13,603 nt of DNA from Thermodesulfobacteriota bacterium (GTDB lineage Bacteria; Desulfobacterota; Desulfocorpusculales; Desulfocorpusculum), in NCBI GenBank assembly GCA_028275295.1, contig JAPWUY010000009.1:1-13603 (forward strand). The letters are read 5' to 3'. The first letter of the stretch is position 1. Every line of letters starts with the position of its first letter. Positions 1-13,603 of the stretch are shown here, piece by piece. The notes under the pieces were generated by a model, which saw only the letters and a program-made list of their open reading frames with translations, searched no databases and was not told where the DNA came from. Both the position numbers and the translations under genes were made by a program.

Positions 1-18
1 CAAAGGGAGGGAAAGACG

Positions 19-483
19 ATGAAGAGGAAATGGGTAGGTTTGGTGGCAGGAGTGGCCATGGTCGGCTGGGCCGCGGCAGCCATGGCCGGACATGGATGGG
101 GCAAGGGCATGGGCCCAGGAGGGGGAGGCGTGGCTAACCCCTACGCGGCATCCTATCTGGGGCTCACCCCGGAGCAGACTTCCCAGCTCCAGGCAATGAG
201 GGAGAGGCACTTCAAGGAGATCGCACCGTTGCAGGAGAAGCTCTTTGCCAAGAAGCAAGAGCTGAGGCTCCTTTGGGCCAACCCCAATCCGGACGCTTCC
301 CAGATCACGGCCAAGCAGAAGGAGATCACCGCTCTCCAAGCCCAGATCCAGGAGCTGTCCACAAAGCATCAACTGGAGGCGAGAAGCATTCTCACCCCTG
401 AACAGCAACAGAAGCTATCCGTTATGAGAGGCCCAGGCCTGGGCGCAGGTCTTGGCTGGGGCAAGAGGGGAAGAGGCTGGTAG
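19..483 (+). CDS. Periplasmic Spy/CpxP-like (metal-resistance sensor type) protein
   Basis: This 154-residue exported protein resembles the Spy/CpxP/CnrX-like LTxxQ superfamily, whose members act as periplasmic chaperones or metal and envelope-stress sensors. An N-terminal signal peptide (residues 1-23, positively charged start, Ala-rich core, likely cleavage after AMA) is followed by a Gly-rich stretch. A helical, Gln/Glu/Lys-rich body comes next. LTPEQ motifs sit at about residues 49-53 and 125-129, the hallmark pair of the family. The tail is again Gly-rich. GGAGG lies 8 bases before the ATG, which fixes the start. The next gene encodes a shorter paralogue after a GC-rich hairpin, so the two probably act together. 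Family assignment rests on motifs and composition. Ligand (metal, misfolded protein) is unknown. Confidence 0.85.
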   Translation: MKRKWVGLVAGVAMVGWAAAAMAGHGWGKGMGPGGGGVANPYAASYLGLTPEQTSQLQAMRERHFKEIAPLQEKLFAKKQELRLLWANPNPDASQITAKQKEITALQAQIQELSTKHQLEARSILTPEQQQKLSVMRGPGLGAGLGWGKRGRGW

Positions 484-494
484 GCCACGTACAA

Positions 495-518
495 GGGGCG
501 GGGGATTAACCCCGCCCA
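495..518 (+). terminator. GC-rich intercistronic hairpin
   Basis: GGGCGGGG (496-503) can pair with CCCCGCCC (510-517) around a 6-base loop, just after the stop of the first periplasmic gene. It is followed by A residues rather than a T tract. A transcript-stabilising or attenuating hairpin between the two paralogues is therefore more likely than a full intrinsic terminator. Confidence 0.5.
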
Positions 519-547
519 AAACAAACCACACGAGGAGGTATGGAACA

Positions 548-907
548 ATGAAGAGAGTGCTCACATTGACGACGGTTCTGGTGGCCATGGTAGTTCTTGC
601 ATCCACAACCCTTGCCGGGCCCTGGGGTGGCAGGTTCTACGGGATGGGGCCTGCTTTGAGCAATCTGACCCCCGAGCAGTCTGCCAAGATCCTGGCCCTG
701 CAACAGGCCCACCTGGAGAAGGTGACACCCATTCAGGAGGAGCTCTTCAAGAAGAAGATGGAGCTTCGATCTCTATGGGCAAGCCAGAACCCGGATCAGG
801 CCAGGATCAACGCCCTGCAGAAGGAGATCTTCGATCTCGTAGACCAGCTTCACCAGGAGTCAATGGCTCTCAGGTCTGAGATCCTGAAGGTCATCCAGTC
901 ACCGTAA
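548..907 (+). CDS. Second periplasmic Spy/CpxP-like protein, shorter paralogue
   Basis: A 119-residue exported protein paralogous to the preceding gene. The signal peptide spans about residues 1-23, with likely cleavage after TLA. LTPEQ follows at about residues 40-44, then a stretch closely parallel to the first protein (matching xLQxxHxxxxxPxQEELFxKKxELRxLWA pattern). It stops at ILKVIQSP, where the first protein has its second LTPEQ motif, so that motif is missing here. The ATG at 548 is chosen because GAGGAGG lies 8-10 bases upstream. A longer in-frame ORF reaches back to 452, but that would run through the hairpin and lacks a signal peptide. The gene probably shares a transcript with the first. 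Its role is likely periplasmic chaperoning or sensing; which ligand it binds cannot be read from sequence. Confidence 0.85.
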   Translation: MKRVLTLTTVLVAMVVLASTTLAGPWGGRFYGMGPALSNLTPEQSAKILALQQAHLEKVTPIQEELFKKKMELRSLWASQNPDQARINALQKEIFDLVDQLHQESMALRSEILKVIQSP

Positions 908-919
908 ACCAGATAAATT

Positions 920-945
920 GGGGGGCGGAAATCCCGCCCCCTTCT
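920..945 (+). terminator. Probable intrinsic terminator after the two periplasmic genes
   Basis: GGGGGCGG (921-928) pairs with CCGCCCCC (934-941) across a 5-base loop, 13 bases after the stop codon. The short run TTCTCT follows. The T tract is weak, but stem strength and position fit a rho-independent terminator of the same style as the hairpin at 496-517. Confidence 0.6.
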
Positions 946-986
946 CTATCGCGGCCTTTGGGGCCGTACAGCACGAGAGGCCCGAG

Positions 987-1418
987 ATGCCATCGAACCC
1001 CAACAAGGCAGAGGAGATCTGGGAGGGAAGGTCCCACTCAGCACTCGACAGAGGAGACATCCGCAGGATGCTCTTGGCCGTTTTGATCATAGGGACATTC
1101 GCGTGTCTGGAGGTGGGAATATTCCTCTTCACCCTGGAGGAGAAGCCAGGTGGGATCAGCTCCCGGCCCGGGCAAGACAATAGGCCAGCCAGAATCCAGG
1201 TCACAGATTTCATGGGGGAGGGGCCGCAAGTCCATCGGGCCGAAAAACGAGAAAAAGGCTATGTTCAGGCCTGGCTGAGATTACAGGGCCAGCAAGTGCC
1301 TTCACAGCCGATTTCGACACTCTTGCAAATGGAGGAGGAAGAGCCGTTGGGTTGTCAGGATAGCCCTGGGCCTCAGCAACCTCTGCCTCCAGGAGTAAAT
1401 GGGCCGTCATGCCAATGA
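987..1418 (+). CDS. Possible small one-TM membrane protein (doubtful)
   Basis: This 143-residue open frame is not recognised as a known family. It would have a charged N-terminus of about 27 residues, one clear hydrophobic segment (about residues 29-50, reading LLAVLIIGTF then CLEVGIFLF) and a Gln/Pro/Glu-rich C-terminal part. The start at 987 has GAGAGG 6 bases upstream. The TM part has GC-rich third positions like its neighbours. The last third has a more random composition and little visible structure, so the gene may be degraded, shorter than shown, or not a gene. Position between periplasmic sensor-like proteins and a zinc anti-sigma-like protein would suit a membrane signalling component, but this is guesswork. 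Confidence 0.35.
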   Translation: MPSNPNKAEEIWEGRSHSALDRGDIRRMLLAVLIIGTFACLEVGIFLFTLEEKPGGISSRPGQDNRPARIQVTDFMGEGPQVHRAEKREKGYVQAWLRLQGQQVPSQPISTLLQMEEEEPLGCQDSPGPQQPLPPGVNGPSCQ

Positions 1419-1476
1419 GCTGGCCCTAAGTCCTGAGGGCATTGCCGGTTTGTCCCCCAGAGGCCAGGAGGTGTTC

Positions 1477-1719
1477 ATGGGCCAAGCAACAAAGAACCCT
1501 GGTGGCTCAAGGCCGAAGAGAGCCGCCGGTCCGTGCCCCTCCTGGCGCGTGGCCTTGCTCATGGATCTTTTCCAGGAGATCTCCACGCATGAGGAGGCCG
1601 CGCTCCTGGAGCACCTGCAGGATTGCGAGCGGTGCAGGGAGGAAAGGAGACGGCTCCGGCTCCTGATGCAGCTGATCCAGACGGCCATGGAGCTCCCCCC
1701 GCGCGTACCCCTTCTCTGA
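1477..1719 (+). CDS. Small zinc anti-sigma-like (zf-HC2) protein
   Basis: An 80-residue soluble protein with the HxxxCxxC signature of zinc anti-sigma domains: His46, Cys50 and Cys53, plus Cys20 lying 26 residues before the His. This is the same spacing as in RsrA-type redox or metal-sensing anti-sigma factors. The domain covers about residues 18-60 and is followed by a basic helix. No TM segment is visible, so it would act in the cytoplasm. The ATG at 1477 is chosen because AGGAGGTG sits 5 bases upstream. An in-frame ATG at 1399 directly follows a stop codon and has a poorly spaced AGGAG. Proteins of this kind hold an ECF sigma factor inactive, but no sigma gene is in the window. The partner may be encoded before position 1 or elsewhere. 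Confidence 0.6.
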   Translation: MGQATKNPGGSRPKRAAGPCPSWRVALLMDLFQEISTHEEAALLEHLQDCERCREERRRLRLLMQLIQTAMELPPRVPLL

Positions 1720-1828
1720 GGCCTCTCAGGCCATCTCTCCCTCCTCCTTGGCAACGCCCACCAAAACAAAGGAACCCTGACCACTGAACCGAAGCAGGTG
1801 ATACAATAGGAGCCGGAGACTCTGGGTG

Positions 1829-3724
1829 ATGGAAGATCGCACCGATATCAAGAGAAAGCTTGCCGCCATCCTAAATGCGGATGTAGTGGGCTACAGCCGC
1901 CTTATCAGGCAGGATGACGAGTCCACTGTTGCCCTCTTGAGACGTTATCGGGAGTTGATGGCGGAGTCCATAGTCCGGCACGGAGGGCGTGTGGTGGACG
2001 CCCCTGGAGACAACCTCTTGGCGGAGTTTCCCAGCGTGGTCCAAGCTGTGCGCTGCGCGGTCGAAGTTCAGGAGACCATAGCCCAAGCCAATGCGCTCTT
2101 GCCTCCTGATCGTCGGATGCTCTTCCGAATGGGAATCAACTCGGGAGAGGTGATCCAGGAAGGGGATAGGATTTACGGAAACGGGGTCAACGTGGCAGCA
2201 AGGCTGCAGGAGCTGGCCCCAGCCGGGGGGATCGCCATCTCGGAGTCGGTGTACGAGGAGGTGGGGGGCAGGCTCTCCCTCACTTATGAGTTTTTGGGAA
2301 AGCACGTAGTCAAGAACATCGATAGGCCCCTCAAGGTATATGCGGTGGGCCCTCGCAATGCAGCGGATGAGCGCAGGGAGCCCCCTGAGAAAGGATCCAT
2401 GAAGAGGAGGAGGAAGGCCACATGGGCTCTGGTCATCTTGGGGGGCCTCCTGCTTGGGGCTTTGAGCCTCATTTTCCTCTATCGCTCCGCCTTCTGGCCC
2501 CCCGAACCAGCACCAGCCGTGGTCGAGCCATCCCCGAGATCTTCGAGTCCCAGCATAGCGGTGCTTCCCTTTCTGGAGCTGAGCGATGCTGCCCAAAAGG
2601 AGCGTCTGGGAGACGGGATAGCGGAGGACATCATCACTGCCCTGGCTGCCATGCCTCGCCTCTCGGTCGTCTCCCGCACCAGCACCTTCAGGTACAAGGA
2701 CAAAGTGCCCGATCCCAGAGAACTGGGCCAGGAACTCAAGGTGCGCTATCTCCTCGAGGGAAGCGTGCAGAAGGAGGGACCCAGGGTGAGGGTCACGGCG
2801 CAGCTCATAGAGGCCGAGACAGGTTTTCACCTTTGGGCGGAGCGCTACGACCTGGAGACAGAGGATCTCTTTGCCCTAAGAGACGACGTGACCTTGCGAG
2901 TGGTCAAGGCCATCCAGGCACAACTTGCGGAAAGGGAAGGGTTTTCCATGAAGCCGAGGCAGACAGATAGCCTCGAGGCGTACCTTCGCTTTCTAAGGGG
3001 TCGATCCTATGCCTCCCAGTTCTCCAGGGAGAAAAACGCCCTGGCCAGACGTTCTTTCCAGGAGGCCTTGTCTCTGGACCCGGGCTTCCTGGATGCGTAC
3101 CTGGCCCTGGCCCACACATACATAACGGATTGGTGGCTTGGCTGGGAGAGCTCTGGAGAAAAGGCCCTGGAGCAGGCCCTGGAGATGACCGAGAAGGCCT
3201 CCCAGCTCAAAGAGACAAACCTCAATGCCCAGGGGCTTCGATCCTATGTCCTCATTCTGAGAGGTGAGCGGCAAAAGGCCCTGGACACGGCCAAGGGGCT
3301 AGTGGCCACCAACCCGGATGAGCCCGAATCATGGGGGTGGTTGGGGGTGGCCCTCTTTTACAGCGGTCAGATCCAGGAGGCCATCCCTCCCCTGGAGAAG
3401 GCCGTGCGCGCCACCCAGAGCCCTGCGGCATGGTATCTCCAGCACCTGGGGTTCGCCTACCTCCTGAGCGGTCGCCATGACCAAGCCATTTCAGCCTTCG
3501 AGAAAGCCCTTTCCCGAAACGAGAGAAACCCCTGGGCCCTTTTGGGGCTGGCGGCGGCTTACAACATGGCAGGCCAAGAGGAGCAAGCCCGAGGGGCCGC
3601 AGCCAGGCTGCGGGCTTCGCACCCTGGGCTCTCCCCCGAGCTCTTTGCGAGCAGACTCCCTTTCAAGGATGACTCCCATCGGGCTTCGTTCGTCAATGCC
3701 TTGCGCCGGGCAGCGGGGGATTGA
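1829..3724 (+). CDS. Class III adenylate/guanylate cyclase with TolB-like domain and TPR repeats
   Basis: A 631-residue membrane-bound nucleotide cyclase of a three-part architecture common in proteobacteria. Residues about 8-175 form the class III catalytic domain. The metal-binding Asp is in NADVVGYS (about residue 18), a second Asp is in the GD of APGDNLLAEF (about 61), and the transition-state Asn and Arg are in GNGVNVAARL (about 121 and 125), so it looks catalytically intact. A basic stretch then leads into one TM helix (about 198-218). Residues about 240-365 match the TolB N-terminal-like fold that follows cyclases in this family (start SIAVLPF). The rest (about 375-610) consists of TPR-type helical repeats. 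The likely product is cAMP; cGMP cannot be excluded. TolB-like and TPR parts probably face the periplasm and sense or bind a partner. ATG 1829 is preferred to the adjacent GTG 1826, with GGAGA upstream of both. Confidence 0.9.
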   Translation: MEDRTDIKRKLAAILNADVVGYSRLIRQDDESTVALLRRYRELMAESIVRHGGRVVDAPGDNLLAEFPSVVQAVRCAVEVQETIAQANALLPPDRRMLFRMGINSGEVIQEGDRIYGNGVNVAARLQELAPAGGIAISESVYEEVGGRLSLTYEFLGKHVVKNIDRPLKVYAVGPRNAADERREPPEKGSMKRRRKATWALVILGGLLLGALSLIFLYRSAFWPPEPAPAVVEPSPRSSSPSIAVLPFLELSDAAQKERLGDGIAEDIITALAAMPRLSVVSRTSTFRYKDKVPDPRELGQELKVRYLLEGSVQKEGPRVRVTAQLIEAETGFHLWAERYDLETEDLFALRDDVTLRVVKAIQAQLAEREGFSMKPRQTDSLEAYLRFLRGRSYASQFSREKNALARRSFQEALSLDPGFLDAYLALAHTYITDWWLGWESSGEKALEQALEMTEKASQLKETNLNAQGLRSYVLILRGERQKALDTAKGLVATNPDEPESWGWLGVALFYSGQIQEAIPPLEKAVRATQSPAAWYLQHLGFAYLLSGRHDQAISAFEKALSRNERNPWALLGLAAAYNMAGQEEQARGAAARLRASHPGLSPELFASRLPFKDDSHRASFVNALRRAAGD

Positions 3725-3811
3725 GAACCGAGGGTGGGATGTGAGGGGCCGTTGCCGACCTGCCGAGATGCGGGCCAAGGGCTTGGGAACCCTCCCCTTC
3801 TTGCCGGGGCT

Positions 3812-3829
3812 CTCGACATATTGGTCGAG
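3812..3829. promoter_or_regulatory. Palindrome, possible activator site for the sigma-54 promoter
   Basis: CTCGAC and GTCGAG form a perfect 6-bp inverted repeat separated by ATATTG. It lies about 180 bases upstream of the sigma-54 motif, a normal distance for an enhancer-binding protein. The half-site CTCGACAT recurs at 3903-3910. No activator gene is present, so the function is inferred from position only. Confidence 0.3.
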
Positions 3830-3997
3830 CGCCTGGCAAGCCCATCGGCCGGCCCTAATTAGCTGGTACGGTTATATTCTCATTCCTGGTTTCTGCTGAG
3901 GGCTCGACATTCCTTGCCTGGCTTTGATCTCCCTTCTTTGCCTTGTCCCCTACCCAACCTACCGAGAGGACGAGCTAATCTACCATTCCCCTTGCCC

Positions 3998-4013
3998 TGG
4001 CACGGTTCTTGCG
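3998..4013 (+). promoter_or_regulatory. Sigma-54 (RpoN) promoter
   Basis: TGGCACG, four bases, then TTGC: an essentially perfect -24/-12 element with GG at 3999-4000 and GC at 4011-4012, ten bases apart. Transcription would start near 4024, giving a leader of about 80 bases to the ATG at 4103. It should drive the protease, 7TM and ligase operon and would need an activator ATPase not encoded here. Confidence 0.75.
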
Positions 4014-4102
4014 GGCATCTATTGCTCGAGGGCCGGGCCAAGTGCCGGCGGAGGATGAGCGACGGCGCATAGCAGCCGGATTCTCCAGCGGAGGGTGGTT
4101 CC

Positions 4103-4711
4103 ATGGAGAGGACTTTTTGGAGAAAAGGAAGTGGATCTTTGACAATCGTGCCCCGAAGCCAAACCGGGCTCTTGATCAGCAGAGCACCGAGCCTCAACCT
4201 CTCGAGGATCCGGCAAATCCTCGGCGCATTCCTGTTGGCGGGATGGTTCCTCAGCGCCGTCCCAGAGAACGCAGGGGGAGTCGAGATCCTTGGGTGGATG
4301 GAAAAAGCCATGTTGAATCCAGGCGGCGTCATCCTCCCGGCCAAACTGGACACGGGGGCTGACCATTCCAGCCTGGATGCCGACGATGTCACCATGATCC
4401 AAAAAGAAGGCCGACAATGGGTCAGGTTCACCGTCACGGCTCCGGACGGAAGACGGACCATTTTGGAAAGACCCTTCGTCCGAACCGCCTTTATCAAGGG
4501 CCGCTCGAGGGATCTTGGAAGGCGTCCTGTGGTGCTAATGGGAATCTGTGTGGGCGGGGTGGTCAAGGAGGTTCAGGTCAACTTGACCGACCGAAGTCAT
4601 TTCAGGTGTCCCCTTATTATCGGGCGGAGCTTTCTGGCCGGCTCGGTGATAGTGGATCCCGGGCGTCGGTATACCAGGGAGATCAGCTGTATGGAAGGAA
4701 AGGGGCCTTGA
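4103..4711 (+). CDS. Retropepsin-like RimK-associated protease (Zn_protease/RimB-like family)
   Basis: A 202-residue protein of the family annotated as putative ATP-dependent zinc protease, which is actually retropepsin-like. The catalytic aspartate motif DTGA is at residues 83-86 within KLDTGADHSSL. The later conserved features are the Arg/Val-rich strand RPVVLMG at about 141-147 and LIIGRSFL at about 171-178. One aspartate motif per chain implies a dimeric active site, as in retroviral proteases. A hydrophobic segment at about residues 38-53 looks like a signal peptide or anchor, so the enzyme is probably periplasmic. The stretch before it (1-37) is unusually long for a signal sequence. The start is supported by GGAGG 8 bases upstream. 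It is followed immediately by the inactive transglutaminase/7TM gene and the ATP-grasp ligase, the usual partners of this family. Confidence 0.85.
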   Translation: MERTFWRKGSGSLTIVPRSQTGLLISRAPSLNLSRIRQILGAFLLAGWFLSAVPENAGGVEILGWMEKAMLNPGGVILPAKLDTGADHSSLDADDVTMIQKEGRQWVRFTVTAPDGRRTILERPFVRTAFIKGRSRDLGRRPVVLMGICVGGVVKEVQVNLTDRSHFRCPLIIGRSFLAGSVIVDPGRRYTREISCMEGKGP

Positions 4712-6237
4712 ACAAGAGCCATCTGTACATCGCGCTGATTCTCTCCGGCCTCGGGCTGGGGTTGTTCCTGTACAAGGTCCTTGCCCTGGGGTTTCCAGTG
4801 GTCAAGGAAACCAAGGCCTCCATCTGGTATGTGGAGACTCACGTCACATTCGAGGCCGATGGGGGACCGGTCAAGGTGGTGATGAACATACCCGGCAACC
4901 AGGCGACCCTTCGCGTGAGCGACGAGAGCTTCGTATCTCCAGGATATGGCCTGACCATCAAGGAAGAGGGCGTAGACAGGCAGGCCATCTGGAGCGTTCG
5001 GGAAGCCTACGGAGAGCAGAGTCTTTACTATCGAGGCGTAGTCCGCCGGCTGCCCGCCAAGGATTTGCCCAAGTTCGAGGAGGCCCCCAGTGTGATACCC
5101 CACGGGTTCGATGGAGCGGAGCTCGTTGCGGCAAAGGCGATACTCAAAGAGGCTAAATCCAGGTCCGCGGATCTGGAGAGCATGGTCCAGCAGCTCATCA
5201 AGATCATCAACAGACCCAAACCGGATGAGCTAGTTGCCCCGCTGCTGAAGGCCGATGCCTCGGTCAGGGATAAGGCGCTTCTCATGGTACGAATACTGGC
5301 CCTGGAGGGTATCCCGGCCCGGCTGCGGCATGGCGTCAAGTTGGAGGACACCCGGGAGGCCATCTTGATAGAACGCTTCCAGGTATTCGAGAAGGGGCGT
5401 TGGGCCTGCTACGACCCCATAACCGCAGAGAAGAAATCCCTGCCGGGGCAGGAGTGTCTGTTTCTGTGGCGAGGGGAATCCCCTCAAGTGACAGTGGATG
5501 GGGGTCACAATGTGAGGGCAAGCACCGCAGTGCGTGCCACCTTGGAGCAAGCAATGGAGAACGCCATCACTCGGGGCAGGACCAGCAACCCCTTGCTCAT
5601 CAAGTTCTCCCTGTTCAGCTTGCCGGTGCGCGTGCAACAGGTGTACGAGGTCATCCTGTTGGTCCCTGTGGGAGCCTTTCTGATAGTGATACTGCGCAAC
5701 TTGGTGGGCATCCGCACCTCCGGGGTATTCATGCCGGTGCTCATCGCCCTTGCCTTCCGCGAGACCAAGATCAGCTGGGGGATAATCCTATTCGTATCCA
5801 TGGTGCTACTTGGGCTTGCGGTCAGGTTCCTGCTGGATCGGTTGAAGCTCTTGTTGGTGCCGCGCCTGACCGTAGTGCTTTTGTCCGTTATAGGGTTCAT
5901 GGTGGCCATCAGCATCCTCACCAACCACCTGGGCCTGGAGAGGGGGGTGTCGGTGGCGTTGTTCCCCATGGTGATCCTGACCATGACCATAGAGCGGTTC
6001 TGCATCATATGGGAGGAGAGCGGCCCTGCGGAGACCCTGTACCGGGGCGTGGCCAGCTTGGCCGCAGCCACGTGTGCGTATCTGGTTATGTCCTGGCACC
6101 CGGTGGGATACCTGGTCTTCGTCTTCCCTGAGCTTCTCGTGGTCATCATGGCCTTCACCTTGCTCATAGGGCGTTACTCGGGATACCGGGTTTCGGATCT
6201 CGTGCGTTTCAAGGCCATTTCGGAGAAACAGCGATGA
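4708..6237 (+). CDS. Membrane protein with inactive transglutaminase-like domain and 7TM region (UUP1 type)
   Basis: A 509-residue inner-membrane protein. One TM helix lies at about residues 6-27, then a large probably periplasmic region (about 28-305), then a polytopic C-terminal part (about 309-495, about seven helices). The transglutaminase-like core is recognisable from GIPARL and the following GRWACYDP. The positions where active enzymes carry Cys and His hold other residues, which fits the inactive transglutaminase family fused to a 7TM domain. The start is taken as TTG 4708, which overlaps the stop of the protease gene and has the purine-rich AGGAAAGGGG upstream. The open frame extends back to 4417, but that part lies out of frame over the protease gene. 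It ends in an ATGA overlap with the ligase gene. It is probably a signalling or scaffold protein joining a periplasmic protease to a cytoplasmic ligase. Confidence 0.85.
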   Translation: MNKSHLYIALILSGLGLGLFLYKVLALGFPVVKETKASIWYVETHVTFEADGGPVKVVMNIPGNQATLRVSDESFVSPGYGLTIKEEGVDRQAIWSVREAYGEQSLYYRGVVRRLPAKDLPKFEEAPSVIPHGFDGAELVAAKAILKEAKSRSADLESMVQQLIKIINRPKPDELVAPLLKADASVRDKALLMVRILALEGIPARLRHGVKLEDTREAILIERFQVFEKGRWACYDPITAEKKSLPGQECLFLWRGESPQVTVDGGHNVRASTAVRATLEQAMENAITRGRTSNPLLIKFSLFSLPVRVQQVYEVILLVPVGAFLIVILRNLVGIRTSGVFMPVLIALAFRETKISWGIILFVSMVLLGLAVRFLLDRLKLLLVPRLTVVLLSVIGFMVAISILTNHLGLERGVSVALFPMVILTMTIERFCIIWEESGPAETLYRGVASLAAATCAYLVMSWHPVGYLVFVFPELLVVIMAFTLLIGRYSGYRVSDLVRFKAISEKQR

Positions 6238-7181
6238 GATGGGCATTGCCAGGAGCACTCAAGAGAGGCGGGGTTCTCGCGATCAACCGCCGAAACGCCC
6301 ATTACACACAGTTCCTGAACCCGCGGAAACAATACCCTTTGGTGGACGACAAACTGGCCACCAAGCGTCTAGTAATGGACTCAGGGATATCGGTTCCGGA
6401 GTTATATGGCTTAGTGGAAGCCCCTTATCAGGCCCGCAATCTGGACCAAATCCTCCAGGAGAGGGAGAATTTCGTGATCAAGCCAGCCCGGGGCAGTGGC
6501 GGCAAGGGAATCCTCGTCTTCAGCGGCCGCTACAAGCGTGCTTACAGGCTCTCAAACGGCCATCTAATGGAGGCAGAGGAGCTGAGGCACCATGTTCTGG
6601 ACATCCTCGGGGGACTCTTCAGCCTGGGTGGACAACCAGACAAGGCATTCGTGGAGGAGAAGGTGAATTTCGACCCAGTGTTCGAGGCAGTGAGCTACCA
6701 GGGAGTGCCCGATGTGCGAATCATCGTGTTCATGGCGGTGCCCGTGATGGCCATGGTTCGCCTTCCCACCCGCCGCTCGGATGGCAAGGCGAACCTGCAC
6801 AAGGGCGCTGTCGGAGTAGGGGTGGACATGGCAACGGGCAAGACCTTGGGGGGTGTGCTGGGCAACGCCCCGGTGGCCGAACACCCTGATACCGGTCACC
6901 CCATAGTGGGCCTCCAAGTCCCCCATTGGGAGATGCTTCTGAGCTTGGCCGCGAGGTGCGGCGACTTGACCGGGATGGGATATCTTGGGGTCGACTTGGT
7001 CCTCGACCGGATAAAAGGGCCGCTGCTTTTGGAGTTGAACGCGAGGCCCGGGCTCAACATCCAGATTGCCAATGGCGCGGGGCTGTTGCCCCGTCTGGAG
7101 GAGGTCCGAAGGGAACGGTGTCGGTTGAGGGAAGTGGAGGACCGGGTCCGATTTTCCATGGAGCGGTTTGCCGCACTGTGA
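6234..7181 (+). CDS. ATP-grasp alpha-L-glutamate ligase-like protein (RimK-related)
   Basis: A 315-residue cytoplasmic ATP-grasp enzyme of the RimK-related glutamate ligase-like family. The ATP-binding Lys is at 83 (FVIKPARG), followed by the glycine-rich loop GSGGKG at 87-92. The substrate region runs from DVRIIVF (160-166) to RLPTRRSDGKANLH (176-189). The metal-binding end has Asp254 and the pair Glu267/Asn269 in LLELNARPG. All motifs look intact. Known relatives add glutamate or similar amino acids to a carboxylate acceptor; the acceptor here is unknown. The start overlaps the stop of the 7TM gene (ATGA), showing tight translational coupling and a common sigma-54 transcript. A peptide-modification and cleavage cycle shared with the upstream protease is a reasonable idea but not shown by the sequence. 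Confidence 0.88.
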   Translation: MRWALPGALKRGGVLAINRRNAHYTQFLNPRKQYPLVDDKLATKRLVMDSGISVPELYGLVEAPYQARNLDQILQERENFVIKPARGSGGKGILVFSGRYKRAYRLSNGHLMEAEELRHHVLDILGGLFSLGGQPDKAFVEEKVNFDPVFEAVSYQGVPDVRIIVFMAVPVMAMVRLPTRRSDGKANLHKGAVGVGVDMATGKTLGGVLGNAPVAEHPDTGHPIVGLQVPHWEMLLSLAARCGDLTGMGYLGVDLVLDRIKGPLLLELNARPGLNIQIANGAGLLPRLEEVRRERCRLREVEDRVRFSMERFAAL

Positions 7182-7189
7182 GATCTTCC

Positions 7190-7205
7190 GGGCATTTGCA
7201 TTGCT
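7190..7205 (+). promoter_or_regulatory. Possible second sigma-54 promoter
   Basis: GG at 7191-7192 and GC at 7203-7204 are ten bases apart. The -12 half TTGCT is perfect; the -24 half GGGCATT matches about four of seven positions. Transcription would start near 7216, about 50 bases before the SHOCT gene. It is weaker than the motif at 3998 but has the right spacing and orientation. Confidence 0.4.
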
Positions 7206-7264
7206 ATAGATAAGGCCTGCCATAGTCAGGTGGGGCCTGATGCGATGGGAAAGGAGGTGCTTCG

Positions 7265-7606
7265 ATGGCGGGCAATGGGTTCTTGTTCTCGGGTGTGGCT
7301 GCAGCTGCCAAGGGTCTCCTTCCGAACGGGGTTCTGGCCCACTGGGGCGGGCCCCACTGGTTTTGGGGGCCTTGGCCTTGGATGACGGGGGATTGGGGGG
7401 TCTGGGGCTGGATCCATTTCCTCGCAGGAATTGGGATCAGGGTCCTCTTCATCGTGGCGTTGATAGCTGCGTTGCGCTGGCTTTTCAAGGCTGGCAAAGG
7501 GGGCAAAGGGGCATCGGGGGCTCTGGAGATACTCAAAGAGCGCTATGCCAAGGGAGAGGTGTCCAAGGAAGAGTTCGAGCGCATGAGAAGGGATATATTG
7601 GCTTGA
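7265..7606 (+). CDS. Small Trp-rich membrane protein with C-terminal SHOCT domain
   Basis: A 113-residue protein. Residues 27-52 are extremely rich in Trp, Gly and Pro (eight Trp in about 28 residues). A TM helix follows at about 52-75, then a Gly/Lys linker. The C-terminal SHOCT motif is at about 85-112 (core ILKERYAKGEVSKEEFE), a short helical module often found at the ends of membrane or oligomerising proteins. The start is certain: AAAGGAGGTG lies 6 bases before the ATG. The gene lies 83 bases after the ligase gene in the same direction, with a possible own sigma-54 promoter. It converges with the permease gene that ends at 7655. Function is not known. Confidence 0.8.
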   Translation: MAGNGFLFSGVAAAAKGLLPNGVLAHWGGPHWFWGPWPWMTGDWGVWGWIHFLAGIGIRVLFIVALIAALRWLFKAGKGGKGASGALEILKERYAKGEVSKEEFERMRRDILA

Positions 7607-7644
7607 GCTATCCTCGGCCCGGAGGCATCGCATGGAGATTTGGC

Positions 7645-7669
7645 AGGCTCCTTGCTAGCCGGGGAGCCT
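7645..7669. terminator. Weak hairpin between convergent genes
   Basis: AGGCTCC (7645-7651) pairs with GGAGCCT (7663-7669) around an 11-base loop at the junction of the convergent SHOCT and permease genes, overlapping the permease stop. No T tract is present on either strand, so termination here is only a possibility. Confidence 0.25.
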
Positions 7670-8197
7670 CATCTCGTAGCCTCTGCCCAGGAGTTTTTCC
7701 ATTAGGATCCCCACTGCTATGAAGACCGGAAGGGTGAAGGCCAGGCGAAGCAGGGAGAACTTGAGCCCCATGAAGCCGATCTCGAAAGAGATCATGGGTA
7801 TCTTCATGGCCGCGAAGGCCCCAAGGAACACGAAGATGTTCCTAAGGCTGCAGCCTTTCCTGCGGAGCATAACGGCGATGGGAAAGGCCGCATAGAGGGG
7901 CCCAGCGTTGAAAAACGCAAGGAGAATCACGAGGAGCATCCCCTTCAGGCCCGATTCATCCCCCAGCATCTCCTCAACGCGCTTCCTCGGGACCCACACA
8001 TCCACCAGGCCGATGAGCATGAAGACGAGGGGGAGCACCAGGATCATCTCCCCCGCGAACCTGCCGAACTCTCGCAGGATCTCCTTCCCCGGCTCCCAAT
8101 GCAAAAGCCAAGAAGCGAAACCTCCCGCCAGGAAAAGGCAAAAGGGAATGTAGCTCCTGAGTCCTACCCTCGCAGGCTTTCCCTCAGATCCTGGCAT
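7655..8197 (-). CDS. Half-size permease, second subunit (ArsP/DUF318-like)
   Basis: A 180-residue inner-membrane protein with about five TM helices (near residues 16-34, 47-69, 85-110, 118-143 and 147-170). It resembles the permease superfamily that includes ArsP, whose full-length members are roughly twice this size. The motif AFFNAGPLYAAFPIA in the third helix and the sequence KIPM...GLKFSLLR later are mirrored in the neighbouring gene (LTLPM...GLKAALLR). The two genes therefore encode paralogous halves. Its start overlaps the end of the upstream half-gene by 14 bases, indicating coupled translation and probably a heterodimer. With an ArsR-type regulator as first gene, export of a metal or metalloid compound is the likely role. 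The substrate cannot be read from sequence. Confidence 0.7.
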   Translation of the reverse strand: MPGSEGKPARVGLRSYIPFCLFLAGGFASWLLHWEPGKEILREFGRFAGEMILVLPLVFMLIGLVDVWVPRKRVEEMLGDESGLKGMLLVILLAFFNAGPLYAAFPIAVMLRRKGCSLRNIFVFLGAFAAMKIPMISFEIGFMGLKFSLLRLAFTLPVFIAVGILMEKLLGRGYEMRLPG

Positions 8198-8663
8198 AGC
8201 TCAACCCCATGAGGATGGCCACTACCACCGCCCCTGCGAGGCTCAACCCATTGCGAAGGAGGGCTGCCTTGAGGCCGAAAAATTTGGACTCCATGGGCAG
8301 GGTCAGGACCCCCACCATCATCAGGGTGGTGACGAATACCGCTATGACGGGAACGCTTGCCCCCTGCTTCATCAAGGTCGAGCAGAGGGGATAGGCTATG
8401 AAGCCCGGAAGTAGCACTATGGAGCCTATGGAGGCTGCCAAGAGAAAGCCCAGTGCTCCCCCCTGTTCGCCCAGCACCCTGGCTATGAGTGGGGCTGGGA
8501 TGAGATAGAGGGCCACCGCCATGAGGATCATCACCGTGAGGAGTGTGGGCATCACGTTGAGAAACATCCTCCCTCCTCTTTGGAGACCCGAGAGGGTCCT
8601 CCTGCGATCCGCCATGAAGGAGACCGCGAGACATAGAATAATGAAGATGGAAAAACCCCTCAT
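8184..8663 (-). CDS. Half-size permease, first subunit (ArsP/DUF318-like)
   Basis: A 159-residue inner-membrane protein with about five TM helices (near residues 2-18, 34-56, 71-94, 103-123 and 135-157). Its second half aligns by eye with the next gene (PM, then FGLKAALLR and a final VVVAILMG helix), so both derive from one repeat unit. The motif LLPGFIAYPL occupies the place of GPLYAAFP in the partner. The ATG at 8663 is preferred, with GGTGAG about 5 bases upstream. An in-frame TTG at 8696 has a closer GGAGG and would add 11 residues, so the start is not settled. Regulation is probably by the ArsR protein encoded upstream on the same strand, after a 207-base gap containing inverted repeats. 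Confidence 0.7.
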   Translation of the reverse strand: MRGFSIFIILCLAVSFMADRRRTLSGLQRGGRMFLNVMPTLLTVMILMAVALYLIPAPLIARVLGEQGGALGFLLAASIGSIVLLPGFIAYPLCSTLMKQGASVPVIAVFVTTLMMVGVLTLPMESKFFGLKAALLRNGLSLAGAVVVAILMGLSYARI

Positions 8664-8686
8664 GAGCTCACCACTCCGTGGGCATA

Positions 8687-8813
8687 GACCCTCCAAAGGC
8701 TCTCAGCTGGCTCCATCGGAGGCCCCGTCACTCGACGCCCCAACGGATGGGACTTGCTCGAGGCTCCCAAAGGTTTGGGGGAGTCTTCCTCCCCCAAAAT
8801 CCTTTGGAGGGTC
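8687..8813. repeat. Nested inverted repeats between arsR-like and permease genes
   Basis: GACCCTCCAAAGG (8687-8699) recurs as its exact reverse complement CCTTTGGAGGGTC (8801-8813). Inside this, TTTGGGGGAG (8774-8783) pairs with CTCCCCCAAA (8789-8798), and CCAAAGG (8767-8773) pairs with CCTTTGG (8801-8807). This gives a 17-bp hairpin with a 2-base bulge. The arm at 8801-8813 can therefore pair with either of two partners. No T tract follows on the minus strand, so a simple terminator is unlikely; a switchable RNA structure or transcript-processing site is possible. Confidence 0.65.
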
Positions 8814-8870
8814 ATCTCTTTGCCCTCAGCTCCTCACGCCTCAAAAGACGCGTGTGGCGAGGGACCCTGT

Positions 8871-9335
8871 TCAGTCCTTCTTCTCGGACTCGCAGGGATG
8901 CTCCTTGACCTCTCCGTGGCACTCCTTGATCTGCTCCGGGGTGCACTCCTCTGGCTTTCCCTTGAGCTTCTCAGGATGTTGGCAGCAGTCCGTGCAGCAC
9001 ATCTGTGGAATCCTCCTTTCTTCCGAGATTTCCTCCTGCTGGAGGATGGTTCGAAAACATGCCGAGGCCTCTGCGGGCCTTCGATCGGCCAAGGACTCGA
9101 TTCGTTGGGCGAGGCCCCTCAGGGCTTCCCTATTCACGATATAGTGGGTCCAGTAGCCCCGTTTTTCCCCCCTCACGAGCCCGGCCCTGCGGAGCACCTG
9201 CAGGTGCTGGGACACAGCGGCCTCGGAAAGACCGACCCTCTTTGCCAGGGCCCCGACACAGAGATCGTGGGTGAGGAGAAGCTCCAGTATGCGAAATCGA
9301 GTTTCGTCCCCGAGGGCCTTGAGAAGGGCTATCAT
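8871..9335 (-). CDS. ArsR/SmtB-family regulator with cysteine-rich C-terminal tail
   Basis: A 154-residue winged-helix repressor. The DNA-binding domain is at about residues 5-70. It shows the ArsR signature start ALGDETRFRILELL, the recognition helix in SEAAVSQHLQVLRRAGLV, and the wing GYWTHYIV. Only one Cys (Cys26) lies in the helix where classical ArsR has CVC. The C-terminal extension from about residue 110 is unusual: CC at 113-114, CC at 117-118, then Cys131, Cys139 and Cys148, mixed with His and Glu. This gives seven cysteines in about 40 residues and should bind soft metal or metalloid ions. Start: ATG at 9335 with GGAG about 10 bases upstream. It is first in a minus-strand unit with two half-permeases and probably represses its own promoter. 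Confidence 0.88.
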   Translation of the reverse strand: MIALLKALGDETRFRILELLLTHDLCVGALAKRVGLSEAAVSQHLQVLRRAGLVRGEKRGYWTHYIVNREALRGLAQRIESLADRRPAEASACFRTILQQEEISEERRIPQMCCTDCCQHPEKLKGKPEECTPEQIKECHGEVKEHPCESEKKD

Positions 9336-9373
9336 CTGGCACCGGCTCCGATCAATTCAGTCGTCACTTCTTT

Positions 9374-9402
9374 ATTTTAGTACTGGCCGATACAGTTGTC
9401 AA
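9374..9402 (-). promoter_or_regulatory. Sigma-70 type promoter of the arsR-permease unit
   Basis: On the minus strand TTGACA (9402-9397) is followed after exactly 17 bases by TAAAAT (9379-9374). Six of six and five of six positions match consensus. Transcription would start near 9367, about 30 bases before the regulator's ATG. Confidence 0.75.
9380..9393. promoter_or_regulatory. Candidate ArsR operator inside the promoter spacer
   Basis: GTACTGGCCGATAC is an imperfect palindrome of the form GTAnnGG-CCnnTAC. It fills the spacer between -10 and -35 of the regulator's promoter, where a bound repressor would block RNA polymerase. ArsR proteins bind such dyads, but the exact site for this protein is inferred. 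Confidence 0.45.
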
Positions 9403-9589
9403 CTCCACGATCCCTTTCCGGGCAGGAAACTCATCCCGCCGCGGCATGGTCTCGCCAATGGGGGGAAAGCAAGCCCTTCTTGTCGCCATGGACATTTGGA
9501 CGAAGGGGAGTTAACGGCCTCAGTAAGATGATCGGGCGGTCTTTTTGGGGGGAGTTTTCTCGAGGCAAAACCCGCGGTCATTCCTTGTC
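9403..9589. other. Divergent intergenic stretch with no clear gene
   Basis: The stretch between the arsR promoter and the riboswitch promoter shows no convincing gene. Only the short dyad TTTCC-GGGCA-GGAAA near 9415 stands out, and it is probably chance. Confidence 0.5.
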
Positions 9590-9619
9590 TTGACACGCCC
9601 GGGCTCCGTGGAGTAAAAA
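9590..9619 (+). promoter_or_regulatory. Promoter of the cobalamin-riboswitch operon
   Basis: TTGACA (9590-9595) is followed after 18 bases by TAAAAA (9614-9619). The -35 is perfect; the -10 matches four of six. Transcription would start near 9626, just ahead of the riboswitch P1 helix at 9641. Confidence 0.55.
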
Positions 9620-9640
9620 GTAAAGGCTCTTTGGAGCGCC

Positions 9641-9835
9641 GTGCTCGGGTACCGTGAGGTTTAAAAGGGAAGACGGTGAGAGACCGTCACGGGCCCGCCG
9701 CTGTGAGTGGGGACGAAAGCCGCACGAGCCACTGTCCATCTCAGGATGGGAAGGCGCGGCGAGTAGGATGATCCACGAGTCAGAAGACCTGCCCGAGCAT
9801 GCTTCACGGACGTCTTCGCGGTTGAGACGGTGAAG
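9641..9835 (+). promoter_or_regulatory. Cobalamin (B12) riboswitch
   Basis: Conserved aptamer parts appear in the right order. GTGCTCGGG (9641-9649) pairs with CCCGAGCAT (9792-9800) to form P1. The core segment GGGCCCGCCGCTGTGA lies near 9690-9705, followed by GGGGACGAAAGCC and CACTG-type segments. GGGAAGG and a GCGAGTAGGATGA-type segment come next. The B12 box AGTCAGAAGACCTGCC is at 9778-9793, with A where GGAGACC is usual. A hairpin directly after P1 (CTTCAC/GTGAAG and CGTCT/AGACG, 9802-9835) fits P13, whose loop makes the kissing contact in this class. Binding of cobalamin should reduce expression of the downstream genes. Confidence 0.93.
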
Positions 9836-9846
9836 GAAGACTTCCT

Positions 9847-9880
9847 GCCCGGTCTTGGCCGAGAAGACCGGGCCTTTTTG
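9847..9880 (+). terminator. Intrinsic terminator of the riboswitch expression platform
   Basis: GCCCGGTCTT (9847-9856) pairs with AAGACCGGGC (9864-9873) through a 7-base loop, followed by CTTTTTG. This is a textbook rho-independent terminator lying just after the riboswitch. An alternative pairing of AAGAC (9837-9841) with GTCTT (9852-9856) would disrupt it, so premature termination is the likely control mechanism. Confidence 0.88.
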
Positions 9881-9956
9881 TTCCCGGCTCTTCCTGGCAG
9901 GGTCTCCTGAGCCACCGCGATGACTTCCGACTTCCTCGCGGAGCAGGAGGCCGGAG

Positions 9957-10301
9957 ATGAACCCCCACCCTCAAGACAGGATCCACACCATTTACTTGTG
10001 CAGATCGCCACAGGTGACGATGCTCGTATTTCTCTTCCTCCAGGAAGGGATCAAGCCAAGGGCCATAGCACGCCTCGAGTGGTCAACAGGTGCGGTCATG
10101 TTCGTGGAATTTCCTGAACTTCCTTGGGATGAACTCCAAGACCAAGTGAGAAGGGACATGCTCGCCTTCTCCACCCAGTACGATGCAGCCGTATCGACGA
10201 TCCACATTCCGAGCGGGTGCTCCCCGGAAACACTCTTGGGATGGATAGAGGCCGAAAAGAGCAGACACACGGCCTATTCGAGGGCCAAGGTGGATGCCTG
10301 A
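9957..10301 (+). CDS. Unrecognised 114-residue protein in the B12 regulon
   Basis: I do not recognise this protein. It is first after the cobalamin riboswitch and terminator and just before the outer-membrane receptor, so its expression should rise when cobalamin is short. The start is well supported by AGGAGG 6 bases upstream. It has no signal peptide or clear TM helix, though residues 20-29 (VTMLVFLFLQ) are hydrophobic. The sequence suggests a small alternating alpha/beta fold: strands near residues 11-15, 20-28, 46-52 and 79-84, helices near 57-74 and 90-103. Two cysteines are present (15 and 88). Codon use matches the neighbours. A cytoplasmic role tied to corrinoid uptake or salvage is suggested by context alone. 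Confidence 0.75.
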   Translation: MNPHPQDRIHTIYLCRSPQVTMLVFLFLQEGIKPRAIARLEWSTGAVMFVEFPELPWDELQDQVRRDMLAFSTQYDAAVSTIHIPSGCSPETLLGWIEAEKSRHTAYSRAKVDA

Positions 10302-10383
10302 AGAACGGTGTAAGGAAAAAGCCCCCTTACGGAAAGAGAGGCGGGGAAAGAAGGAGCCCGGTGAGGGAAAGGAGGGAGAGGTC

Positions 10384-12450
10384 ATGGAACAAAGGGCGAG
10401 GAAGGGTATTTTGGCTTTGGGTGCATTGGTGGGTGTTTTCCTATTGGAGCTGGGGCTTGCCCAAGAGCAGGTGCGCCTCAAGGAAGTGGTCGTCACCGCC
10501 ACTCGAAGCGAGGTGCCAGTGGAGGAGCTCGGCGTCTCGGCGACAATAATAACCTCGGAGGAGATCCGCGACAGGCAAGTGACAGATGTGCTGGAGCTCC
10601 TTAGGGATGTTGCCGGGCTCACCATGGTTCAAAGTGGATCAAGAGGGGCATTGGCCGAGCTTTACTTCAGGGGCACTGAGAGCAACCATACCCTCGTCCT
10701 CATAGATGGGGTGAAGGTGAACGAGGCAGGGGGCGGGTTCGACTGGTCCACCATCACCACGGACAACATAGAGAGGATAGAGATCATCAGGGGACCTCAG
10801 AGCGCCCTCTACGGCTCAGAGGCAATGGGAGGGGTCATTCACATAATAACCAAGAAGGGGCAGGGCCCTCCCAAGATCACCTTCTCCACAGCCCATGGGG
10901 GACATTCGGAAAACGGCAAATACATGGGTGAGCAGAAGCTGAGCCTCTCAGGGGGAAGTCAATGGGCGGGTTACTCCTTAGCCTTCAGCAGGATAGACGA
11001 CCTGGGGATCCTCTCCAAGAACAATGACTACTGGAACAACACCTTGAGCGGCAGATTGGACCTCTACCCCACGGAAAAGCTGGATGTGACCATGACTGGG
11101 AGGTTCACCAACAATCGCTTCGGCATAGCCACTGAAAATGGCGGTGATATTCCCGACAGGATCTTCCCCGGGCTGGACCCGGACCAGTATCAGGAGAAGA
11201 TAGATATGGTGGGCAGCATTGGGGCCAAGCTCCAGCTTTTCCCCTGGTGGGAGCACGTGATCCAGGCGGGTCTTCACAGACTGGACCAAAAGTTCAGGGA
11301 CAGGCCTGATGCTGAAACTGCCTTCGACTTTCCTCCTGGAAGCCGCACCGATTCGCTGGAGACAAGGGCTACCTTGGACTACCACACTAACTTCAAGTTT
11401 CCGGCTCAGGGGCCTGTCCGCTCCACACTGACATTGGGTTATCAGTTCGATCACGAGGCCCTGGATCTCGACGCCTTTTCCACCTTCCGCTTCGGCCCCC
11501 CACCTTTCGGCATATTCACCAGCTCAGAGAGGAGGGAGGCCTCAAGATCCAACCACGGTTACTACCTCCAGGAGCAGGTCACCATTCTGGATAGACTTCA
11601 CCTCACAGGGGGCTTCAGGGTAGAGGACAACTCCTCCTATGGAATGGAAGTGAATCCGAGGGGGTCCGTGGCATACGAGCTCAAGGAGACGGGGACCAAG
11701 TTCAGGGGAGCTGCTGGCACAGGAATAAAGGAGCCGACTTTTCTGGAAAACTTTGGCGGGTTTGGCACCATAGGGAATCCAGACCTCAAGCCCGAGAGGA
11801 TCTTCTCGTGGGAGATCGGTGTGGATCAATACTTCCTCGACCGAAAAGTGGAATTGGGGGTCACTTATTTCAGGAACTATCTCAAGGACCTCATAACATA
11901 CGTTCCCACCTCCTGGCCGCCACCTCCAGTGCTTCCGCCCAATTATTTCAATATCCAGGAAGCGGAGGATTGGGGGGTGGAGCTAGGGGTCAAGATCAGG
12001 CCTTTCTCTGGACTCACGGTGGGAGGAACTTACACCTTCCTGGACACGGAGGTCACCAATGATGGAGGGCTCGGGAACCTTTACTTTGCCAAGGGGAAGA
12101 AACTCCTCAGGAGACCCAACCACACGGGATCCTTCTTCGTCAACTGGGCGTGGAAGGGGCTCAATGTGAATCTCAGGGGCTCTTATGTGGGGCCCAGGGA
12201 CGATACCTTCTTCACCGTCTCCCCAGGGCCTTTTGGGTTCTATGACTTTGTGAACAGAAGAGTGACCAACCAGGACTACTTCGTCATGGACCTTGCCCTC
12301 TCATACACATTGGACCTGAGCTCTGGACCCATACGATCCGTGAGATTCTTCGCTAAGGGGAGAAACATCCTCAACGAGAAGTACGAGGAAGTTTACGGAT
12401 ATTCGTCCCCCAGGGCCAGTGCGATTGGTGGGGTGGAGTTTTCTTTCTAA
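10384..12450 (+). CDS. btuB: BtuB-like TonB-dependent outer-membrane receptor
   Basis: A 688-residue outer-membrane transporter. The signal peptide spans about residues 1-26 (cleavage near GLA-QEQ). A TonB box-like stretch VVVTATR follows at about 35-41, then the plug domain to about 155. Plug motifs seen include LRDVAGL, LYFRGTESNHTLVLIDG and IEIIRGPQSALYGSEAMGGVI. The remainder is a barrel with alternating aromatic strands ending in a terminal Phe (VEFSF), the outer-membrane assembly signal. Riboswitch control and the following cobT gene point to cobalamin or another corrinoid as substrate. The ATG at 10384 is chosen because the signal peptide begins there, with GGAGGGAGAGG upstream. An in-frame ATG at 10294 would add 30 highly charged residues and overlap the preceding gene by 8 bases. 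Confidence 0.9.
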   Translation: MEQRARKGILALGALVGVFLLELGLAQEQVRLKEVVVTATRSEVPVEELGVSATIITSEEIRDRQVTDVLELLRDVAGLTMVQSGSRGALAELYFRGTESNHTLVLIDGVKVNEAGGGFDWSTITTDNIERIEIIRGPQSALYGSEAMGGVIHIITKKGQGPPKITFSTAHGGHSENGKYMGEQKLSLSGGSQWAGYSLAFSRIDDLGILSKNNDYWNNTLSGRLDLYPTEKLDVTMTGRFTNNRFGIATENGGDIPDRIFPGLDPDQYQEKIDMVGSIGAKLQLFPWWEHVIQAGLHRLDQKFRDRPDAETAFDFPPGSRTDSLETRATLDYHTNFKFPAQGPVRSTLTLGYQFDHEALDLDAFSTFRFGPPPFGIFTSSERREASRSNHGYYLQEQVTILDRLHLTGGFRVEDNSSYGMEVNPRGSVAYELKETGTKFRGAAGTGIKEPTFLENFGGFGTIGNPDLKPERIFSWEIGVDQYFLDRKVELGVTYFRNYLKDLITYVPTSWPPPPVLPPNYFNIQEAEDWGVELGVKIRPFSGLTVGGTYTFLDTEVTNDGGLGNLYFAKGKKLLRRPNHTGSFFVNWAWKGLNVNLRGSYVGPRDDTFFTVSPGPFGFYDFVNRRVTNQDYFVMDLALSYTLDLSSGPIRSVRFFAKGRNILNEKYEEVYGYSSPRASAIGGVEFSF

Positions 12451-12459
12451 GGGGGGCTC

Positions 12460-13524
12460 ATGGGACTTCTCAGGGAGACAATCGCCGCGATCCAGCCTCA
12501 GGATCCCAAGTGGCGAGAAAGGGCGAGACAGAGGCTTCGAGAGCTCACGATGCCCCATTGGGCCCTCGGAAGGTTGATGGACCTGGCCGTTGACCTTGCT
12601 GGGATCACCCGCTCCATGAAGCCAAAGACCTCGAGAAGGGTAGTGGTGGTAATGGCTGCTGATCATGGGGTGGCGGAGGAAGGGGTGAGCAAGTATCCCC
12701 AAGAGGTCACGGCACAAATGGTGATGAATTTTCTGAGGGGTGGGGCGGGCATCAATGCCTTGGCAAAGGTCGCGAGAGCGAAAGTAGTGGTCGTGGACAT
12801 GGGAGTTCTCAATGAAATTGGGGATGTGCCCCCTGGGGCGAGCTTTCTCAGGAAAAAGGTCGCCCCAGGCACCAAGAACATGGCCCAGGGGCCAGCAATG
12901 TCCAGGGAGGAGGCCATAAAGGCTTTGGAGACAGGGATCTCCATCGCGATGGAGCTGGCCTCGAGATTCCATATCCTGGCAGCCGGGGACATGGGGATTG
13001 GGAATACCACCCCCAGTTCAGCGATCCTTTCGGTCATGGCTGGAGCGAGCCCCCATGAGGTCACAGGAAGGGGAACAGGACTCGAGGACCATGAGCTCCA
13101 GAGGAAGATCACGGTGGTCGAGAGGGCGATCTCGGCTAACAGGCCCGATCCCTCAGATCCCATAGACGTTCTCGCCAAGGTGGGAGGTTTGGAGATAGGA
13201 GGGATTGCGGGCTTCTTCTTGGGGTGCGCGAGGGCGAGGAAGCCAGCCTTGGTGGATGGCTTTATCTCCACAGCTGGAGCTCTAATAGCCAAGGCCCTCT
13301 GCCCCGCATCCATCGAGTACATGATAGCTTCCCACAGAAGCGCCGAGAGGGGCCACAGGCTGGCCCTGGAATATCTGGGACTCAAGCCCCTTTTGGACCT
13401 GGATTTGAGGCTGGGAGAAGGGACAGGGGCTGCTCTGGCAATGCCCCTGGTTGAAGCGGCAGCGAGGATATTGACGGATGTGGCGACTTTCGATGAGGCC
13501 AGAGTATCAAGGGCCTCCCATTGA
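12460..13524 (+). CDS. cobT: Nicotinate-nucleotide-dimethylbenzimidazole phosphoribosyltransferase
   Basis: A 354-residue cytoplasmic enzyme, full length for the family. It transfers phosphoribose from nicotinate mononucleotide to dimethylbenzimidazole (or another lower-ligand base), giving alpha-ribazole phosphate for the nucleotide loop of cobalamin. Conserved parts seen: MAADHGVAEEGVSKYPQEVT (about 65-84), NFLRGGAGINALA (about 90-102), AAGDMGIGNTTPSSA (about 174-188), and LGEGTGAALAMPLVEAA near the C-terminus with the catalytic Glu at about 320. It starts 9 bases after the btuB-like stop, with GGGGGG a few bases before the ATG, so it belongs to the riboswitch operon. Together with the receptor this suggests salvage of incomplete corrinoids and attachment of a chosen base. 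Other nucleotide-loop genes are not in the window but may follow. Confidence 0.95.
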   Translation: MGLLRETIAAIQPQDPKWRERARQRLRELTMPHWALGRLMDLAVDLAGITRSMKPKTSRRVVVVMAADHGVAEEGVSKYPQEVTAQMVMNFLRGGAGINALAKVARAKVVVVDMGVLNEIGDVPPGASFLRKKVAPGTKNMAQGPAMSREEAIKALETGISIAMELASRFHILAAGDMGIGNTTPSSAILSVMAGASPHEVTGRGTGLEDHELQRKITVVERAISANRPDPSDPIDVLAKVGGLEIGGIAGFFLGCARARKPALVDGFISTAGALIAKALCPASIEYMIASHRSAERGHRLALEYLGLKPLLDLDLRLGEGTGAALAMPLVEAAARILTDVATFDEARVSRASH

Positions 13525-13603
13525 GGGAAAAGAGGGGCCAAGGAAAACTCGAGTTTCATCTGGGCCCTATCAAAAGCCCTTTCCAGCGAAGGGGCGCACT
13601 CTT

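Follow-up and report, generated by a model that had tools for sequence, protein, structure and literature searches.

Uptake operons that stand under a cobalamin riboswitch (RF00174) and carry btuB and cobT, in the order riboswitch, terminator, receptor and cobT, are the closest described systems to the locus analyzed here. In Bacteroidetes, vitamin B12 (cobalamin) uptake also involves accessory proteins, BtuG among them, which are surface proteins or lipoproteins. B12 uptake operons in that group are reported to carry the accessory protein BtuH (PMC8941943), and a 2025 report treats B12-binding proteins, lipoproteins among them (PMC12751083). Our locus resembles these cases in that a B12 uptake operon contains additional genes that are uncharacterised. 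It lies in a stretch of 13,603 nucleotides from a Thermodesulfobacteriota bacterium (contig JAPWUY010000009.1, assembly GCA_028275295.1, positions 1 to 13,603; hereafter the window). Compared to the RF00174 operons with btuB and cobT, the order of elements is the same, but the window adds a first gene (9957-10301) without a match in Pfam, NCBIfam or PHROGs. Whereas the Bacteroidetes accessory proteins are surface-exposed or lipoproteins, the window protein has about 115 residues and no signal-like start. We propose that this small protein likely has a real, though still unexplained, part in B12 scavenging. It represents a new, uncharacterised family of genes that is tied to B12 by a riboswitch occurring in differing neighbourhoods; a literature search on cobalamin riboswitches together with small or unknown proteins found no paper on such a protein among those listed, a weak negative because most subscription papers fell outside its coverage.

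An earlier note, made from the letters of the window, had described a 114-residue open reading frame with an AGGAGG start, behind a riboswitch and terminator and ahead of a btuB-like receptor and cobT. All of these features were confirmed (Table 1), and so was the proposal that the frame is a real gene. It is under purifying selection, since the differences from genome G001 are mostly found in third codon positions (32, 36 and 65 by position) and the ratio of nonsynonymous to synonymous divergence (dN/dS) is about 0.27 (dN 0.407, dS 1.535); against G002 the dS is saturated. Searching 5.8 billion proteins with the single sequence yielded seven clusters that resemble the window protein, and 18 were found with an alignment as query (its own cluster counted in both cases), with identities of 35 to 99%. 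At the genome level the gene is present in all three genomes searched of the window's family (the window's own, G001 and G002), each time between an RF00174 match and a TonB receptor. After the receptor comes cobT in G001 and a frame with Pfam domains POR_N and TPP_enzyme_C in G002. No convincing match of this narrow family was obtained in the remaining genomes among 395 of the phylum: a row in G040 (E 0.004) was dropped with its internal stop, and matches in G028 and G043 were dropped as weak. The repeated neighbourhood with B12 riboswitch, receptor and cobT that the earlier note had proposed to look for was found among the homologues, and neither of the results it had named as refuting was seen, namely a clear match to a family of unrelated function or a lack of homologues conserved next to B12 genes. 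Searches of plasmids with the window protein, and of phages with its probable distant relative from G003, gave no match.

The riboswitch accompanies the gene throughout. In all six carriers (the window, G001, G002, and the more distant G003, G077 and G083) RF00174 lies directly upstream on the same strand, and Shine-Dalgarno-like sites can be read upstream of the start. A terminator-like hairpin on the plus strand separates aptamer and gene in five of the six (weak in G002, with 5 pairs); a simple scan found none in G083. The window hairpin has a 10-pair stem (7 G-C) followed by CTTTTTG, and is the sole plus-strand site of the nine found in 9400-13603, a region for which shuffles average 4.5 sites with both strands counted. 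A near-identical hairpin stands at the corresponding place in G001; in the scans of G001, G002, G003 and G077 shuffles average 0.7 to 1.1 sites per region. Behind the gene the surroundings differ: no receptor gene follows in G003, G077 and G083. In G003 and G077 the gene is followed by thyX (Pfam Thy1) in convergent orientation, and in G083 a D-Ala-D-Ala ligase frame starts some 285 nucleotides on. B12 genes are near in one of these three distant loci, namely G077: there cobT is divergent at a distance of 61 nucleotides from the riboswitch, while FecCD and a BtuF-like gene are found on the far side of thyX. Riboswitch and small gene thus stay paired when the neighbourhood changes, which suggests that the riboswitch serves to control the small protein itself. 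The link with B12 looks stronger than the earlier note had proposed, given probable distant relatives that follow a cobalamin riboswitch but have no receptor gene after them. The cytoplasmic role in corrinoid handling or regulation that it offered is still inferred, with no significant fold match and no histidine or cysteine column kept across the wide family.

Sequence comparison makes it probable that the two branches, narrow and distant, share a common descent. The G003 candidate came from a listing of frames that follow a sample of the phylum's cobalamin riboswitches; the first frame there encodes 115 residues with a similar residue rhythm. Using hhalign, the narrow-family alignment (A3) matches it over 93 columns with a single-pair E of 2.3e-6 and 14% identity, and its identity to six narrow members in the joint alignment and to one more is 13 to 19%. 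Searching the 395 genomes with the G003 protein revealed G077 at E 1e-24 and G083 at E 0.002, each with an RF00174 match immediately upstream; the distant branch lies in two further families of the phylum. A row in G170, in a frame that resembles LpxI, scored better than G083 (E 3.4e-4) but has no riboswitch and looks unrelated, so false rows occur at that level. Membership of G083 is therefore based on its riboswitch position, BLASTP to G003 (27% over 95 residues) and a G003-type profile (E 3e-8). As G003 was found from the riboswitch side, its position is not independent evidence; that of G083 is, and that of G077, a member of G003's genus, is only partly so.

Further comparisons between the branches gave values of varying strength. 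Single-pair hhalign E values against A3 are 7.8e-4 for G083 and 0.014 for G077. The narrow and distant profiles align over 99 columns (E 5.7e-7, score 42.3), whereas the best of 300 unrelated control frames against A3 scores 24.7 over 19 columns, with the controls being single sequences and the distant branch four sequences. Single distant proteins score 38, 24, 20 and 17 against A3: three fall within the control range but span 88 to 106 columns. With HMMER, A3 finds G003 (9e-7), G083 (2e-4) and G077 (1.1) among the frames behind 96 riboswitches. The six carriers among these 96 loci do not represent a rate, because loci were chosen by riboswitch score and carriers were added deliberately (the L049 and L149 stretches are short). 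In a set of 2967 open frames plus reversals G003 is found at 5e-5 and G083 at 0.0057, next to two unrelated frames at 0.0048 and 0.0098. When a joint narrow and distant profile (A4) is run over the 395 genomes, six matches score below 1e-30, and all six directly follow an RF00174 match; since A4 included those six proteins (a near-identical one for G001), only the absence of others is informative. No seventh match below 1e-4 appeared in these genomes besides two HflC-like frames. Allowing E values up to 1, another 77 genomes beyond the six carriers showed at least one row; eight of these loci were inspected, five on the matching strand and three (L069, L071 and L075) on the opposite one. The frames in G187, G074, G135 and G162, which resemble HflC, matched with E values between 2e-5 and 3e-3, and the alignment was confined to positions 38 or 44 to 105, which we treat as a local resemblance.

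The carriers probably import corrinoids. Searches for CbiC, which acts in the synthesis of the corrin ring, recovered it from none of the six (the three of the window's family, G003, G077 and G083) but from 41 of the remaining 93 genomes in a phylum sample of 99 (hypergeometric 0.036, a value that ignores shared ancestry and genome incompleteness; G000 is 81% complete). Other riboswitch loci in G001 and G002 head frames that presumably encode BtuF and CobT.

Several other loci came to light among the cobalamin riboswitches. Four of them are followed by a different small frame, of about 85-92 residues (L090:1043-1300 on the minus strand, coordinates converted by hand, and, in riboswitch-relative positions, L136 341-601, L112 995-1255 and L039 1217-1495), beginning roughly 'xxYLxGxxxLP' and containing a stretch similar to 'AWHYLLTKG'; the L039 copy comes after a CbiK-like frame. 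These frames may form a second small family about which little is known. Behind the riboswitches of L107 (G007) and L126 (G043) some 580 to 830 nucleotides hold no plus-strand frame of at least 50 codons, after which comes a longer gene common to both. The riboswitch of L106 (G004) has an unusual neighbourhood, with frames at riboswitch-relative 347-514 and 626-1147 that presumably encode a Flp-type pilin and a prepilin peptidase.

The window protein matched no known family, in line with the earlier note, which could match it to no B12 gene. Apart from a rejected AAC_3 row (E 0.16; 11.3 bits, cut-off 270), the three family libraries returned nothing; a search of PDB sequences gave four rows with a best E of 0.23, and for the eight members of A2 Pfam returned nothing even when E values up to 10 were allowed. 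A structure model with a predicted local distance difference test (pLDDT) score of 86 resembles, below significance, the WGR fold of PARP1/2/3 and bacterial MMR-like proteins. The WGR profile (PF05406) was unmatched in the G003 protein and in six further proteins, two of them A2 members. An earlier model from eight sequences reached a pLDDT of 64, with no Foldseek row at E 0.001 or better. By eye, 16 of the 19 members open with a short polar stretch followed by a strand, without a signal-peptide-like start; the other three records begin at residue 22 and cannot be judged. The signal peptide or lipobox of a surface or periplasmic B12-binding protein was likewise not recognized in this reading, and a cytosolic location would fit.

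Our preferred reading, held tentatively, is that the protein may serve as a small cytosolic accessory of corrinoid scavenging that acts via a protein partner. At low cobalamin levels, transcription would be allowed by the riboswitch to proceed past the terminator. The small protein would then be made first; in the window and G001 it would be accompanied by receptor and CobT and in G002 by the receptor, while in G003, G077 and G083 no receptor gene follows it. The anatomy of the locus and its conservation are shown here, and the biochemical steps are inferred from them. The small protein might bind a partner of the uptake or activation route, such as BtuCD, an adenosyltransferase or CobT, and such binding would be more likely than direct coordination of cobalt by the small protein. 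It is also conceivable, if doubtful, that we are dealing with a new riboswitch-controlled family of WGR-like cytosolic effectors of B12 shortage; produced only under corrinoid scarcity, they would either spare the cofactor through restraint of B12-dependent enzymes or adjust the regulon, in bacteria unable to make the corrin ring. If there is indeed such a scavenging step or B12-sparing effector in the cytosol, the small protein would fill a place for which we know of no established player, and its gene would offer a testable handle on the management of a scarce cofactor in bacteria without corrin synthesis.

A number of observations weigh against the reading of an accessory to corrinoid scavenging. 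The family has a patchy distribution, with carriers in 6 of 395 genomes, so the gene is dispensable for B12 uptake in general; it is found neither in G042 (family f2) nor in four of the five f10 genomes. The association with missing CbiC comes from three families. The link between the two branches is not symmetric: the distant profile recovers G001 only at 0.065 and G002 at 0.38 and does not list the window, with HflC-like frames at 0.0015. A likely relative of the distant branch in G367 (L083:1483-1776, E 1e-8 to the distant profile), one of the weak rows of the A4 search, has no riboswitch. It lies near a contig end, its start is not clear, and it may be a remnant or a relative without riboswitch linkage, which speaks against an exclusive linkage. 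Any binding of a corrinoid or of a protein is hypothetical, and the nearest folds, if any, are WGR-like nucleic-acid-binding or protein-binding domains that would suit a regulator equally well.

Such a regulator, which would tune the B12 regulon by binding mRNA or DNA or as a co-factor of a transcription factor, is somewhat unlikely in our judgement, even though the WGR-like nearest folds would fit it despite falling below significance. A role as a B12-sparing factor, made only under B12 shortage to restrain or protect a B12-dependent enzyme and so save cofactor, is unlikely in our view. This idea draws on the analogy with inhibitory small subunits holding other enzymes. Among the closest described proteins is the inhibitory subunit of methane monooxygenase hydroxylase (6d7k, MmoD), likewise small and single-domain, with which 59 residues could be aligned.

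Distinctly unlikely is a corrinoid chaperone, in which a side chain would bind cobalt and the corrinoid would be handed to the adenosyltransferase. The operon shared with receptor and cobT would suit this role, as would Cys15 and Cys88, read in the alignment as kept in 16 of 16 narrow members covering that part and in 17 of 19, respectively, and the adenosyltransferase-like frames that we presume near another riboswitch locus of G001. Neither cysteine, however, is kept in the four distant members, no column among the 23 sequences reaches 80% histidine or cysteine, and DxHxxG, the motif of B12-binding domains, is absent from the window protein as read directly. Finally, that translation of the small gene mainly paces or couples receptor expression, with a protein of little weight in itself, is highly improbable: the gene does come first after the riboswitch and ends 82 nucleotides before the probable receptor start, but its residues are under purifying selection and its probable relatives have no receptor gene behind them.

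Table 1. Features of the riboswitch operon in the window.
Feature	Position	Strand	Evidence
Cobalamin riboswitch aptamer RF00174	9630-9810	+	cmscan score of 123.6 bits (gathering score 31.5)
Rho-independent terminator-like hairpin and T run, riboswitch expression platform	9847-9879	+	hairpin at 9847-9873
Shine-Dalgarno AGGAGG	9945-9950	+	6 nucleotides upstream of ATG, read in sequence
Small uncharacterised gene, 114 codons/114 amino acids, ATG start	9957-10301	+	homologues, selection, no Pfam/NCBIfam/PHROGs family
BtuB-like TonB-dependent receptor (probable start)	10384-12450	+	Pfam PF00593 (barrel) and PF07715 (Plug)
cobT, nicotinate-nucleotide--dimethylbenzimidazole phosphoribosyltransferase	12460-13524	+	PF02277, TIGR03160 above cut-off

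The best NCBIfam model for the receptor is the vitamin B12 receptor TIGR01779 (239 bits, under its cut-off of 599.7). Its longest frame opens at the first ATG, 10294; the start listed in Table 1 is the likelier one, judging from a signal-peptide-like beginning and a Shine-Dalgarno site of its own, read directly. CobT reaches 445.8 bits with TIGR03160 (cut-off 319.3). The GC content at third codon positions is similar for the small gene, receptor and cobT (0.68, 0.70 and 0.68).

Two further regions of the window lie outside this operon. Divergent from it, the minus strand of 7655-9335 encodes an ArsR-type regulator (Pfam HTH_5) and, by reading, two permease-like frames, a unit that is possibly metal-related. 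At 19-907 two tandem small frames with signal-like starts and a common 'LTPEQ' pattern presumably resemble metal-sensing periplasmic proteins.
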